Source of the DNA: Anaerobranca gottschalkii DSM 13577 | GTDB lineage: Bacteria; Bacillota; Proteinivoracia; Proteinivoracales; Proteinivoracaceae | Direction of reading: 5' to 3' | NCBI RefSeq assembly: GCF_900111575.1 | Contig: NZ_FOIF01000017.1 | Span: 1-35,734, forward strand | Length of the DNA stretch: 35,734 nucleotides | Shown: positions 1-15,465 of the stretch, in pieces | How the letters are laid out: each line of letters opens with the position of its first letter | Position numbering within the stretch: position 1 is the first letter of the stretch | Made by a program: the position numbers and the translations under genes | Notes under the pieces: generated by a model | The model's input: the letters and a program-made list of their open reading frames with translations, nothing else | The model's database searches: none | What the model was told of the DNA's origin: nothing

Positions 1-310
1 ATAGCTACTGCTCAGACTGAAGACAAACTATAGACAAAGTCATCATCAGCTGTGGTAATTAAACAAAGATACGATTAAGTTGAGGAGATAGATTTAAGAG
101 CTGATTAGATAAAAGGAAGAAGGGGTGAGGAACAGGACGTTCCGAAAGCTCTATTGAGCCATGGATGGCGAATTAGAGCGGTACCCTTCTTCCTTTTAGA
201 TAGAAGCCTTAAATCTCGACGGAGACTTTGTTAGAATGTTTAATTACCACAGCCTTTAAAAAATGACTTTGTCTACAAACTGAGCAGTAGCTTAAATAGC
301 TACTGCTTAA
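1..310 (+). ncRNA. Candidate large structured RNA (rod with terminal three-way junction)
   Basis: No ORF is credible here, but both halves are complementary along their length. Helices read directly: 3-15 with 280-292 (13 bp), 31-43 with 263-275 (13 bp), 49-64 with 238-253 (16 bp), 79-83 with 216-220 (with one G.U), 91-98 with 208-215 (8 bp), and 111-126 with 182-197 (one bulge). These close a junction holding hairpin 129-133/139-143 and hairpin 148-153/174-179, the latter containing 158-161/166-169. Unpaired segments are purine-rich on the plus strand, and the single wobble pair is G.U only on that strand, which favours plus-strand transcription. The 283-292 arm can instead pair with 298-307, a copy of 3-12, giving an alternative 10-bp hairpin. 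It may start left of the window. Large Clostridial RNA families (for example raiA-type) are possible, but I could not verify membership. A palindromic MITE, or the folded 3' end of the arcC transcript, are alternatives. Confidence 0.5.
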
Positions 311-11476: not shown

Positions 11477-12856
11477 TCAGATGCTAATCTTATATTTCTT
11501 TAATTTATATTGTAAGTTTTGTCTAGAAATCCCTAATTCCTCAGCTGTTTTAGAGATATTGCCATTTAATTCTTTAAGTTTTTCTGTTATAACCTCTACT
11601 TCCAGTTTTTCTAAAATTTCTGGTAGAGTTTTAGGGGTAGGTTTTGTGTCAGCCCATTGTTGAAGGTGTTTAGGTAAAATATCTATAGTAATTATATGAT
11701 CTTCTGGAAGGATGTTTATAGCACCTTCAATGACATGTTGAAGTTCCCTGACATTCCCTGGCCAGGAATAATTATAAAAAAGGTTCATCACTTCTTTGCT
11801 GATTTTTACATCTTTAATATTGAATTGTTTTTTATATTTATCGATAAAGTATTTAGTTAGAAGTATTATATCACTCCGCCTTTCCCTTAACGGAGGGATT
11901 TCAATATTTACAACTGCCAAACGGTAGTAGAGGTCCTGCCTAATTTTATTATTTCTAACACTTTCCCCAGGCTCTGTATTTGTTGTGGCAATTATCCTTA
12001 CATCAACGGGGATTTCTTTAGTTCCACCTATTGGCCTGACTTTTTTATCTTGTAAAACCCTCAAAAGTTTAGCCTGTAAATCTAGTCCCATTGAATTTAT
12101 CTCATCTAATAAAAGGGTTCCACCATCTGCTTGTTGTAATAACCCTGGCCTATCTACTGCTCCGGTAAAACTTCCCTTTACTGTCCCAAATAGGATCCCT
12201 TCTAATAGAGATTCTGGTAGTGCTGCACAATTTTGAGCTATAAAAGGCTTATTTTTTCTTTTACTAGCGTAGTGGATACTTTGAGCAAAGAGTTCTTTAC
12301 CTGTTCCAGTTTCTCCGTAAATCAATACAGAAGAATCAGTTTTTGCCGCCCTCTTACCGTATTCAATTATTTTTTTAAGTTTTTCACTTTCACCGATAAT
12401 GTTGTTAAAGGTAAAGTTTTCACCTTCTCCTTTTTTATCCTTTGTTGTATAGAGTTGTTGTTGTAAATCGACTATTTTTTCCGCCAATTCTTGTAATCGG
12501 GTAACATCTTTAGAAATTTCCAATACCCCTACAAATTCTCCGTTGTTATAAAGGGGTACTGTTGTGTTAATAGTTACTATCCTTTGACCTTTGTAGTTTG
12601 TATATACTTGAACTTGATCGTAAATTGGTTTTTTAGTTTTAAGTACCCGGTGTATAGTACTAGTTTCTGGGGTGAGGGAGGGAAACATAGCTAAAACATC
12701 TTTATACAATACTTGATGACCTTCCATTCCCTCCATTCGAGCCATTGTTGGATTATAGAAAATGGTTTCTCCCTTTTTATCAACAATATGAATCCCTTCA
12801 TCTATCGAGTTTAAAATGTTTTCAAAGTTAAGTTTTAATATATTATCAAAATCCAT
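11477..12856 (-). CDS. PAS-AAA-Fis sigma-54-dependent transcriptional activator
   Basis: Bacterial enhancer-binding protein of 459 residues. An N-terminal PAS sensor (about 12-118), a short coiled-coil linker (about 118-140), the AAA+ domain (about 152-390) with Walker A GETGTGKE (181-188), the sigma-54 contact loop GSFTGA (228-233, a conservative form of GAFTGA) and Walker B GTLLLDEI (246-253), and a C-terminal Fis-type helix-turn-helix (about 432-456). It lacks a phosphoacceptor receiver domain, so control is probably by a small ligand or redox signal at the PAS domain. It lies immediately upstream of a sigma-54 promoter driving arginine/ornithine catabolism, like RocR-type regulators; the ligand is not determinable here. 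A GGGGGTG site precedes the ATG. Confidence 0.93.
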   Translation of the reverse strand: MDFDNILKLNFENILNSIDEGIHIVDKKGETIFYNPTMARMEGMEGHQVLYKDVLAMFPSLTPETSTIHRVLKTKKPIYDQVQVYTNYKGQRIVTINTTVPLYNNGEFVGVLEISKDVTRLQELAEKIVDLQQQLYTTKDKKGEGENFTFNNIIGESEKLKKIIEYGKRAAKTDSSVLIYGETGTGKELFAQSIHYASKRKNKPFIAQNCAALPESLLEGILFGTVKGSFTGAVDRPGLLQQADGGTLLLDEINSMGLDLQAKLLRVLQDKKVRPIGGTKEIPVDVRIIATTNTEPGESVRNNKIRQDLYYRLAVVNIEIPPLRERRSDIILLTKYFIDKYKKQFNIKDVKISKEVMNLFYNYSWPGNVRELQHVIEGAINILPEDHIITIDILPKHLQQWADTKPTPKTLPEILEKLEVEVITEKLKELNGNISKTAEELGISRQNLQYKLKKYKISI

Positions 12857-12956: not shown

Positions 12957-13643
12957 TTACTTTTGTAGAAATTCCACTAATCCAGAACAGATACTCCATG
13001 CTAATTTATATTGATATTCTTCCCTTTGGAGATTTTTTCGCTCTTCTGGATTTGATAAAAATCCCGTTTCCACCAGTACCCCAATGATATCTAATTCCCT
13101 GGTTAAATAAAAGTCCCTGGCCTTTGCCTCTCGATGGGTCCCTGTATTAACTTTTAGGTGTTTTTGAATGATATTGGCTAGTTCTTGAGACTGTTCTTTT
13201 TCTTTATCATAAAAGGTTTGGGCACCTTTCCATCTTGGAGATGTTGTGCTGTTAGTATGGATACTTATTAGATAAGCTGCTCCACTTTTTTCAATTAACT
13301 CTCTTCTCTTTAACATATCTTGCTGTTTTTTAGGTCCTGCAGTTGCATCTAAAAAATCTTTGTCTTCTTCTCTAGTCATTACCACACTAAAGCCATTTAT
13401 CAATAATACCTCTTTAACTTTTAAAGCGATTTCTAAATTTATGTCCTTTTCCTTTACATTTTCTACTGTTGTACCTGGGTCATAACCACCATGCCCTGGG
13501 TCTACTGCTACGATAATTTTCCCCTGTGAATCTAAGGCATTTTTCTCTAAAATAGGAGTAGTTGTCTCTGTGTTATCTATACATCCATTTAAAAGGGAAA
13601 CTATTAACATAATGATACAATAGAATGAGATTTTTTTAACCAA
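12957..13643 (-). CDS. N-acetylmuramoyl-L-alanine amidase, lipoprotein (Amidase_3)
   Basis: Zinc-dependent cell-wall hydrolase that cuts the bond between N-acetylmuramic acid and L-alanine. The 228-residue protein has a lipoprotein signal peptide (positive VKK, hydrophobic 6-19, lipobox LLNGC with C21), so it should be anchored to the outer face of the membrane. The catalytic domain begins at about 43: VDPGHGG (H51), the glutamate near 65, SIHTNS (H129) and VETGFLSN (E192) supply the zinc ligands and catalytic glutamate of the Amidase_3/CwlD-like family. Translation starts at a TTG preceded by GAGGGGTG. It is a monocistron by its terminator. Sporulation-type CwlD or a general autolysin are both possible. 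Confidence 0.88.
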   Translation of the reverse strand: MVKKISFYCIIMLIVSLLNGCIDNTETTTPILEKNALDSQGKIIVAVDPGHGGYDPGTTVENVKEKDINLEIALKVKEVLLINGFSVVMTREEDKDFLDATAGPKKQQDMLKRRELIEKSGAAYLISIHTNSTTSPRWKGAQTFYDKEKEQSQELANIIQKHLKVNTGTHREAKARDFYLTRELDIIGVLVETGFLSNPEERKNLQREEYQYKLAWSICSGLVEFLQK

Positions 13644-13697
13644 TTAAATCACCCCTCTTAACCTATTTTCTGTTAAAAAGGGCTTTATTATACTTAC

Positions 13698-13720
13698 AAA
13701 AAACCCGCCAAAGAGAGTTT
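13698..13720 (-). terminator. Weak candidate terminator after the HEPN gene
   Basis: A 6-bp stem (13701-13706 with 13715-13720, one G.U on the minus strand) and an eight-base loop, running into a T-tract on the minus strand. Short but correctly placed 16 bases after the stop. Confidence 0.4.
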
Positions 13721-13735
13721 AGTACATTCTAATAA

Positions 13736-14131
13736 TTATTTAAGCCACTTATCAATATAAGCTTCAATCATATTAATAAACTTTTCGACATTAACCAGTT
13801 GTTTCCTCGCCTCTTCTTTGTTAATGATATAAAAATCTTGATAATCACTTTTAGTTCTAATATCAAAAGCACTAACAATTATTTTATAGTATTCCTTTTC
13901 TATTTTCCCATTAGCAATATAATTTTTATTAAAATATCCTAAAATAGATGAATGCTTTTTAGAATCAAATCTATCATAAGCCAATAATGCCCTTAAAGCA
14001 TGAAAAGCTGCATAATATGACCTATTTACTGACTGTGCGAACATGCTATGCTCAAAATTTATTTTTGCTGTTTCTAAATCTTGTTTAGCCTTTTCTAATC
14101 TATAATTTGATAGATCCCTAACTTTATCCAT
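13736..14131 (-). CDS. HEPN-domain protein (toxin-type partner of the MNT gene)
   Basis: A 131-residue, all-alpha, lysine-rich protein with the HEPN signature RSYYAAFH (R37 to H44, an R-x6-H spacing). This is the PF05168-like type with the YYAAFHA pattern rather than the RX4HXY pattern of the HepT toxins. In paired loci HEPN proteins usually act as ribonucleases or as regulated partners of the nucleotidyltransferase; catalytic activity is not proven for this subtype. I chose the ATG at 14131, nine bases after AAGGGA; a TTG at 14140 in the same frame is less likely. It overlaps the MNT gene by eight bases, showing co-translation. Confidence 0.85.
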   Translation of the reverse strand: MDKVRDLSNYRLEKAKQDLETAKINFEHSMFAQSVNRSYYAAFHALRALLAYDRFDSKKHSSILGYFNKNYIANGKIEKEYYKIIVSAFDIRTKSDYQDFYIINKEEARKQLVNVEKFINMIEAYIDKWLK

Positions 14132-14552
14132 ATATATCAATCCCTTCTCTTTTTATATTTGCAAAGAAAGGAAGTACTTCTGCCCATTCATAAAAATGAT
14201 CATAGTTATTTTCAATTATAGATAGAACTATTCCATATTGAGTTGTTAAATCTACAACAACATCCAGTAACCTACCTTGCTTTCTTTTAATTTCCTCTTC
14301 ATCCATATCTAGCAAGAGCATTATATCTAAATCAGATTCTTCATCATTATCTCCTCTAGCATAAGATCCATATAATAATATTTTCTTTAATTTTTCCCCA
14401 TATATATTTTTTAACCTTTTTTCCAAATCCATTAATAATAAATCTATTTTCCTATTTTGGAAGTTTATCTTCTTTAGCAAGATAACCACCCTTTCCGAAA
14501 TTAACTCGTAATAGCTTTTGAGAAAGTCTAATGAGATGTTAAACTTAAGCAA
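14124..14552 (-). CDS. Minimal nucleotidyltransferase (MNT), antitoxin-type
   Basis: DNA polymerase beta-like minimal nucleotidyltransferase, with GSYARG (62-67) and the metal-binding pair in SDLDI (D74, D76), an intact GSx10DxD motif. Such proteins can transfer AMP to a partner; with HEPN partners this can neutralise the toxin. The longest frame (142 residues) begins at TTG with only a weak GTGAG site, but a good extended -10 lies 30 bases upstream, consistent with it. A start at the internal methionine 41 would give a 102-residue protein of usual MNT length. The N-terminal 40 residues are therefore doubtful. Confidence 0.83.
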   Translation of the reverse strand: MLKFNISLDFLKSYYELISERVVILLKKINFQNRKIDLLLMDLEKRLKNIYGEKLKKILLYGSYARGDNDEESDLDIMLLLDMDEEEIKRKQGRLLDVVVDLTTQYGIVLSIIENNYDHFYEWAEVLPFFANIKREGIDIYG

Positions 14553-14581
14553 AAGAATTTAATCTCACTACTAATATAAAT

Positions 14582-14590
14582 ATTATAACA
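14582..14590 (-). promoter_or_regulatory. Extended -10 promoter of the MNT-HEPN pair
   Basis: Minus-strand TGTTATAAT, a perfect TATAAT with the TGn extension, and no good -35. Predicted start near 14575 gives a leader of about 23 bases to the TTG start. Confidence 0.6.
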
Positions 14591-14597
14591 CAATTTA

Positions 14598-14622
14598 TTC
14601 GAAATAGAGAGTCTAAATCGAA
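14598..14622. promoter_or_regulatory. Candidate operator of the MNT-HEPN promoter
   Basis: A 25-base inverted repeat, TTCGAAATAGA and TCTAAATCGAA around GAG (9 of 11 positions pair), covering the -25 to -47 region of the extended -10 promoter. The position would suit a repressor, as in autoregulated toxin-antitoxin loci. No regulator has been shown to bind. Confidence 0.4.
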
Positions 14623-14830
14623 ACAATTTTTTTAATTTTATAATTCGTTCTGTAGAAGTTAAATTATTTACGTTTGCTCAACTGAAATCTAATCATAAGC
14701 CATTTAAGTACATTAGAAATCGATGTCCCCTTTCTTAATGTATCTAATCAAAGATTCTCGAGCCAGAATGTTCAAAATCAGGCACTAAGAATCATTCATG
14801 TTGTAGAAATGCAGAAGGGAGATGAAAGGA

Positions 14831-14998
14831 ATGTGTAAATCAAATTGCGATCATCCTGAGTTACGTCCAAAAGACGGTAAGTGCAGTAAAGAGCTGATTG
14901 AAAAATGTCATGGCAAGAATAAGAATCACCCATGCAATGAAAAAGATGAAAAAAAGGATAACAAATTCAACTCTGAAATGGACAGAAATCGAGTATGA
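14831..14998 (+). CDS. Small Cys/His-rich peptide, unknown function
   Basis: A 55-residue plus-strand ORF in a stretch otherwise without genes. It begins MCKSNCDHPE, continues RPKDGKCSKELIEKCHG and HPC, and ends in a Lys/Asp/Glu-rich tail. Five cysteines (one each at residues 2, 6, 18, 26 and 35) and three histidines suggest metal binding or disulfides; there is no signal peptide or membrane segment. The ATG at 14831 is preceded by AAGGGAGAT at a good distance; an in-frame ATG at 14822 overlaps that site. The regular spacing of Cys, His and Pro, the ribosome binding site and the hairpin over its stop argue that it is real. I do not recognise a named family. Confidence 0.6.
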   Translation: MCKSNCDHPELRPKDGKCSKELIEKCHGKNKNHPCNEKDEKKDNKFNSEMDRNRV

Positions 14999-15012
14999 TT
15001 TCTGTCCATTTC
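14975..15012 (+). terminator. Perfect 16-bp hairpin over the small ORF stop codon
   Basis: GAAATGGACAGAAATC (14975-14990) and its exact complement (14997-15012) surround a six-base loop. The stop TGA spans the loop and 3' arm. The following bases are AT-rich without a true T-run, so it may be a weak terminator or an mRNA 3'-stabilising structure. Confidence 0.55.
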
Positions 15013-15036
15013 AAATTATTGTTGCCAAATAAACAC

Positions 15037-15067
15037 AAAAAACCCCCGCAAATTTTGCAGGGGTTTT
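15037..15067. terminator. Bidirectional terminator between rpsI and the small ORF
   Basis: A 7-bp GC-rich stem (15043-15049 with 15057-15063), with six A residues on its left and TTTT on its right, so it has a T-tract on both strands. It ends the rplM-rpsI transcript (minus) and would also stop the converging plus-strand small gene. Confidence 0.88.
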
Positions 15068-15078
15068 GTATTTGAATA

Positions 15079-15465
15079 TTAACGTTTGGAGAATTGTGGT
15101 GCACGGCGGGCTTTTTTCAAACCGTATTTCTTTCTCTCTACCATTCTTGGGTCCCTTGTTAAGAAACCAGCTTTCTTTAAAGCAGGTCTGAAGTTAGGAT
15201 CTACTTTAAGAAGAGCTCTAGAGATACCATGGCGAATAGCGCCTGCTTGACCAGAAACACCGCCACCATATACGTTTACTAATACATCAAATTGTCCTAA
15301 TGTTTTAGTAAGTTCTAATGGTTGTTTAACGATAAGTTTTAAAGTTTCTAAACCACCAAAGTAGTTGTCAATATCTCTTTTGTTGATCAATATATTGCCT
15401 TCACCAGGTACTAAACGTACTCTAGCTACAGATGTTTTACGACGACCGGTTCCAATATAAGCCAT
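15079..15465 (-). CDS. rpsI: 30S ribosomal protein S9
   Basis: Head protein of the small subunit; 128 residues. [16 protein letters not shown] at the N terminus and the [12 protein letters not shown] tail are diagnostic; the terminal Lys-Arg reaches the P-site tRNA. It follows rplM by 17 bases and is the last gene of the pair. Confidence 0.97.

Follow-up and report, generated by a model that had tools for sequence, protein, structure and literature searches.

The window, that is, the whole 35,734-nt stretch of Anaerobranca gottschalkii DSM 13577 analyzed here (contig NZ_FOIF01000017.1), carries at 14831..14998 of its plus strand a short open reading frame (ORF) that is, judged by sequence comparison, a real gene and a member of a conserved family of Cys/His mini-proteins of about 40 residues. 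This family, defined here through an alignment (A2) and referred to as the 'CHG' mini-protein family, appears to be undescribed and lacks a Pfam or NCBIfam model. On balance, we consider it probable that the family is partnered with a repressor of the ArsR/SmtB type and often with a transporter, and that the window copy was cut from such an operon. An earlier note on this DNA had read the ORF as an unannotated gene with stem-loops of its own; it is better explained as the last part of an arsR-peptide operon, of metal type, stranded inside an island of ~1.34 kb, and it provides a concrete case of an operon broken in a small island. Gene callers and family libraries readily overlook small Cys/His proteins. 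The present family is conserved over many genera, is without a model in Pfam or NCBIfam, and comes with a concrete hypothesis that involves a palindrome, a transporter and candidate ligands.

The ORF encodes 55 amino acids (MCKSNCDHPELRPKDGKCSKELIEKCHGKNKNHPCNEKDEKKDNKFNSEMDRNRV), and its translation agrees with the five cysteines and the HPE, RPKDGKCS, KCHG and HPC motifs described in the earlier note. The ribosome binding site AAGGGAG (14815..14821, plus strand) is located 9 nt before the ATG at 14831 and is as good as had been stated, whereas a second in-frame ATG at 14822 sits too near to this motif to be the start. Among the ORFs of at least 90 amino acids that were surveyed, all nine on the plus strand overlap minus-strand ORFs, in line with the view that this is the sole credible plus-strand gene. 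The conserved family core corresponds to residues 1 to 39 (14831-14947, plus strand), which are 82% identical to the peptide encoded at locus L018, from an Alkaliphilus sp. MAG. Residues ~41 to 55 (14948..14998, plus strand) form a charged, non-conserved tail that enters a hairpin past the position of the L018 stop codon. The L018 ORF ends at 40 amino acids, and the window's residues ~41 to 55 align with noncoding DNA and the hairpin of L018. The stop has thus been lost in the window, so that the frame continues into the hairpin and the charged tail is created; this tail, previously regarded as part of the protein, lies outside the conserved core. An AF2 model based on four sequences was weak (pLDDT 63.4), with one helix at residues 20 to 27, and places no metal site. 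A genome search retrieved no second copy of the peptide in the A. gottschalkii genome.

The hairpin entered by the tail is perfect, with a 17-bp stem and a 6-nt loop (14974..15013), and has a counterpart after the peptide gene of L018 (4145-4188 of that locus). Folding of 14972-15015 resulted in -25.9 kcal/mol (z -9.0). The hairpin was rejected as a terminator of the peptide gene: a loose scan flags both strands, but the sequence that follows (AATTATTGTT) has no clear T-run. A second hairpin, which does have a T-run (15039..15067, minus strand), is the terminator of rpsI and not the peptide's own. Of the stem-loops that had been assigned to the gene itself, the first is therefore present, and the second belongs to its neighbor. 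At the position of the rpsI terminator, the genome G001, from the same genus, has a hairpin-like segment whose sequence differs.

A query of a species-genome collection with the window peptide alone returned three confirmed relatives (L018, L019 and L020), of which L020 is from Candidatus Lithacetigena, a taxon assigned to its own phylum by NCBI. Within the window's phylum, represented by 398 genomes, a profile made from seven sequences matched 24, including two weak matches, and a profile made from 23 sequences matched 23, among them the window's own genome and a weak match (G017). Two genomes with weak matches and internal stops (G344 and G368) were dropped, and the match in G017 comprises 25 residues. 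Relatives that keep the cysteines, proposed in the earlier note as a check on the gene, thus exist according to both the peptide and the profile searches. The residues C6, C18, C26 and H27 are invariant across the 23 rows of alignment A2, from which three of the loci described below (L079, L082 and L090) were left out, and P9, S19, E21, I23, G28 and C35 are nearly invariant. The window peptide carries all of them; in the L090 peptide, CQG replaces CHG and C35 is absent.

The statement that the peptide belongs to no recognized family was confirmed, as Pfam and NCBIfam gave nothing for it. None of the 23 family members matched any NCBIfam model, and the Pfam search of these members retrieved three unrelated families with one weak member each (best E 0.0024). 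No metallothionein model of Pfam or NCBIfam was matched by any of the 23 members, PADLOC showed 0 matches for the window peptide, and no relative of solved structure was found by sequence. In the portions of the literature consulted, no description of the 'CHG' mini-protein family was found, and three 11-residue strings of the family occurred in none of these papers. A phage or plasmid gene was also considered and rejected: plasmid and phage sequences gave no tblastn match to the window peptide, a second family member was equally without a plasmid match, and a pattern scan of viral contigs matched 5 stretches, none of which was confirmed. Some members deviate from the simple architecture. In L128 (1189-1611), the mini-protein domain is the C terminus of a 140-residue ORF that has a very Cys/His-rich N terminus and comes after an ABC-2-like permease (by eye). 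In genome G035, one ORF holds two tandem mini-protein units (L077, 6026-6211), and a second copy (L082, 5160-5530) is split between two frames, with genes for a PadR regulator and an ABC exporter as neighbors.

The cores of the window and L018 genes differ at 18 of 117 nt, 12 of which are third positions, and 7 of the 39 amino acids are changed, compared with ~12-13 changes expected under random substitution (P 0.0001-0.0024). For the Ka/Ks check suggested in the earlier note, the value depends on the method: NG86 gave 0.086/0.94 (0.09) and YN00 0.107/0.358 (0.30), and dS was saturated in the maximum-likelihood estimate. Since selection was measured across both branches, a recent decay of the window copy may go unseen. 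At position 28, the window retains the Gly of the family where L018 has a Cys. At positions 14-15, the KD of the window is also found in L020 and L076, and the EN of L018 is also found in L089.

Two sets of loci were used to analyze the gene neighborhood. The first set (n = 24) consisted of the loci of 21 convincing genomes obtained with the seven-sequence profile, with the window's own genome excluded and G035 represented twice, plus L018 and L020; the model used for the ArsR scan was built from three of these 24 loci. The second set was found by the peptide profile alone and comprised ~1.5-kb flanks. Of its 13 loci, 12 were kept, since L131 had no peptide ORF above the threshold (L133 was also dropped, both being weak or containing stops); because same-genus and same-genome pairs are included, these 12 loci represent fewer than 12 independent events. 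An ArsR-type gene was present at a distance of up to ~1.9 kb from the peptide gene in 16 of the 24 first-set loci and, with the same model, in 6 of the 12 second-set loci. As a rough scale, the 3 ArsR-like matches in the window's 2.3-Mb genome lead to an expectation of ~0.5% per locus. ArsR was absent from the searched DNA in 8/24 and 6/12 loci (L072, L124 and L125 are near contig ends).

The arsR gene is placed directly upstream of the peptide gene in 10 loci of the first set and in 3 of the second. Among these 10, four overlap the peptide gene, three are within ~20 nt of it, and three share one frame with it, such that arsR and peptide form a single stop-free frame in L084, L085 and L087 (3/24). 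In L090 and L120, both from one genus, the peptide frame runs into that of an ABC ATPase. The joined frames may start internally, and RBS-like sequences are found ahead of some.

A same-strand transporter gene adjoins the peptide gene in 14 of the 24 first-set loci (partly by eye), and no transporter is directly adjoining in the other 10. In the second set, a same-strand transporter gene is located downstream in 5 of the 12 loci (L122, L125, L129 and L130, Pfam-tested, and L120, by eye), and L126 has a MOT1 gene in divergent orientation to the peptide gene. According to Pfam, the first-set transporters include an ABC ATPase with an ABC-2 permease (DrrAB type) at L018 and L089, an ABC ATPase at L074, members of the chromate transporter family at L080 and L084, ArsP_1 permeases at L069, a MOT1 molybdate family protein at L072, and an ABC exporter accompanied by PadR at L082; those at L070, L073, L077, L085, L086 and L090 were called by eye. 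Given these several kinds of transporter, no single substrate is implied. Upstream of the arsR-peptide-ABC operon of L018, on the other strand, there are genes for a serine recombinase (Resolvase/Recombinase) and a RhuM-family protein (3-2906), which are perhaps a sign of mobility.

The ArsR proteins of the 16 loci have one helix-region Cys in common (16/16), and tail cysteines are present in 13/16 and 11/16. The two proteins scanned with NF033788, the model for ArsR/SmtB metalloregulators, scored 76.6 (L018) and 78.3 bits (L020) against a cut-off of 55. With an ArsR neighbor of metalloregulator type, which has an invariant Cys, and with the transporters, the family is, by its context elsewhere, metal related.

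A 24-bp palindrome, TTAATTAAGTAnnTACTTAATTAA, is found upstream of arsR where this gene comes first and upstream of the peptide gene where the latter comes first, just downstream of a -10-like box (by eye). The first analysis covered 26 upstream stretches from 22 loci and the window (L079 and L090 were left out), and the consensus was derived from the same first-set sequences on which it was scored. In 14 of the 22 loci, there is a site reached by at most 5 of 200 dinucleotide shuffles. A 2-nt spacing is used by 11 of the 14, and L083, L085 and L086 pass with a different spacing only. Palindromes were marginal in L077 (7/200) and L084 (13/200), and none above shuffles was detected in L072 (80 nt available), L075, L076, L078, L081 and L082. 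In L069, L070 and L080, the palindrome is absent on the arsR side and present on the peptide side. With the consensus unchanged, 10 of the 12 second-set loci had a best site that no more than 1 in 200 shuffles reached, the better of the two upstream stretches being counted where an ArsR was present. The two that failed were L123 (133/200) and L127 (20/200), and no palindrome was seen on the arsR side of L126, L127 or L132. Upstream of the window peptide, the best site matches 15 of 22 positions and was reached by 84 of 200 shuffles, so that there is no palindrome above shuffles. The window's genome has none at up to 3 mismatches, a search that misses weaker sites such as the many in the family with 4-6.

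The window stretch 14750..15019 (plus strand) is homologous to the arsR-peptide-ABC operon of L018, the part aligned by BLAST being 14766-15014 (78.9%, 251 columns). It contains an arsR remnant of ~24 codons from the 3' end of the gene (ILEPECSKSGTKNHSCCRNAEGR, 14754..14825, plus strand, with the stop at 14823-14825) that matches the L018 tail IETECTKTGSKNHSCCRKEVKKNV in frame. The remainder of an L018-type arsR has no match in the window, and the three ArsR-like matches elsewhere in the genome are distant (30-36% identity). The gene downstream of the peptide is not an exporter but the convergent rpsI. In the window, the operon appears to have been severed: the peptide gene and the 3' end of arsR are left, whereas the palindrome, the exporter and the larger part of arsR are missing.

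The ~1.34-kb island, located between cwlD and rpsI, comprises a HEPN/nucleotidyltransferase pair, the arsR relic, the peptide gene and the hairpin. Its left neighbor encodes a CwlD-like amidase (12957..13643, minus strand; 200 bits versus a cut-off of 221.55) and its right neighbor is rpsI (15079..15465, minus strand), the product of which we take to be ribosomal protein S9. In G001, rpsI and cwlD are neighbors with 56 nt between the BLAST matches, compared with ~1.38 kb in the window. In G002, which is of the same family as A. gottschalkii, other genes are present between rpsI and cwlD, and the junction is thus variable. Exact 11-nt direct repeats of the sequence ACAAAAAACCC border the island on the left (13696..13706, plus strand) and on the right (15035..15045, plus strand), where the repeat overlaps the rpsI terminator; this repeat length was reached by 1 of 300 mononucleotide shuffles. 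The comparison, with one same-genus genome, suggests that the island may have been gained in the window's lineage rather than lost in G001. The pair consists of an MNT-like nucleotidyltransferase (14124..14552, minus strand; PF01909; PADLOC candidate PDC-S09, E 5.7e-26) and a HEPN-domain partner (13736..14140, minus strand; PF05168, E 7.7e-22). The nucleotidyltransferase is below the cut-off of the type VII MntA model NF047752 (29.2 versus 60 bits), and of 41 searched genomes, 5 match at E 1e-6, with 29-36% identity outside the window's own.

Several explanations compete with this reading of the window copy. The likelihood of a chance ORF is practically negligible: the frame is short and matches no family model, but its homologues in 22 other genomes of the 398 (one weak), with conserved cysteines, and the bias of its differences from L018 to third positions led us to reject this option. 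The serious contender, to which we assign somewhat less than an even chance, is a dead relic, namely, an unexpressed leftover whose intact core would reflect a recent arrival. The missing ArsR palindrome, the cut arsR, the absent exporter and the lost stop are consistent with such a relic, as are the promoter-like matches in 13600-15120, which with 9 show no excess over the shuffle mean of 9.4. Arguing against it are the intact RBS and core cysteines, the retention of the family Gly at position 28 where L018 has Cys, and a 278-bp divergent intergenic region that could house a promoter.

The divergent orientation within the same island might suggest that the peptide is a third component of the HEPN/nucleotidyltransferase system. 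We consider this highly improbable, since other loci of the family recurrently adjoin ArsR and transporters with no HEPN/MNT pair noticed by eye, and the L018 DNA match extends into arsR and not into the MNT gene. The island resembles type VII HEPN/MntA toxin-antitoxin systems in the presence of such a pair in it, but on present evidence, the pair does not belong to the system of the peptide. It is unlikely, though less so, that the peptide is a disulfide/thiol redox peptide or a nucleic-acid-binding zinc knuckle that acts as an ArsR co-regulator instead of an ion carrier. The conserved residues, four Cys and one His, could give disulfides or a zinc site, and the frame is joined with that of ArsR in 3/24 loci; however, the alignment has no conserved CxxC pair, there is no solved relative by sequence, and the transporter linkage suits ion handling better.

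In the intact family, the likeliest role of the peptide is to assist an exporter, under the control of ArsR, by binding a metal or metalloid. In this preferred reading, the intact system most likely senses and exports a soft metal or metalloid, with the peptide as ion carrier or buffer. The ArsR protein, with its invariant helix Cys and its Cys tail, would occupy the promoter palindrome and would be freed from it by a soft metal or metalloid ion. The operon would then be expressed and the peptide made, which may bind the same ion via C6, C18, C26, C35 and H27 and carry or buffer it for the exporter (DrrAB ABC, ChrA-like or ArsP-like) and/or the sensor. The window copy lacks an adjoining palindrome or exporter and has an intact core with a C terminus lengthened by read-through. 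The window peptide is thus an orphan, with the core intact and an RBS present, and is without known control. A broader proposal, which we put forward tentatively and regard as rather doubtful, is that the family represents a new class of mini-proteins under ArsR control, which would accompany a soft, toxic metal or metalloid between the sensor and the exporter, either free or joined to the C terminus of ArsR or the N terminus of an ABC ATPase, and which would have spread across bacteria as a swappable module combined with differing transporters, the window copy having been moved and broken together with the HEPN/nucleotidyltransferase island.

The family shares features with several known systems. 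SmtB-SmtA of cyanobacteria consists of an ArsR/SmtB repressor and a metallothionein and is alike in that a regulator of the ArsR family is paired with a gene for a small Cys-rich protein. The present family differs in that it matches no metallothionein model, has four conserved Cys, and has genes that are often on the same strand, overlapping and beside a transporter. The ArsR-ArsD-ArsA/ArsB arsenic operons similarly combine an ArsR-type switch with a small, Cys-containing protein that is the proposed carrier to the efflux pump. ArsD is, however, larger than the mini-protein, and the transporters here are of the DrrAB, ChrA, ArsP_1 or MOT1 types. CmtR, an ArsR protein that senses Cd/Pb (NF047906), is another point of comparison: the L018 ArsR scores 49.1 bits, which is far under the curated 150-bit cut-off of this model, and a tail Cys is a suspected ligand, a comparison based on the metal ligands of CmtR itself.

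Two further observations concern the remainder of the window. Just past cwlD, there is a gene for a sigma-54 activator that resembles PrdR (11477-12856, minus strand; 412 bits versus a cut-off of 795), and the genes beyond it resemble an amino acid degradation cluster (by eye). Far from the peptide, the region 80-227 (plus strand) gives a borderline Rfam match to the TwoAYGGAY RNA, with 44.3 bits versus a gathering score of 43.
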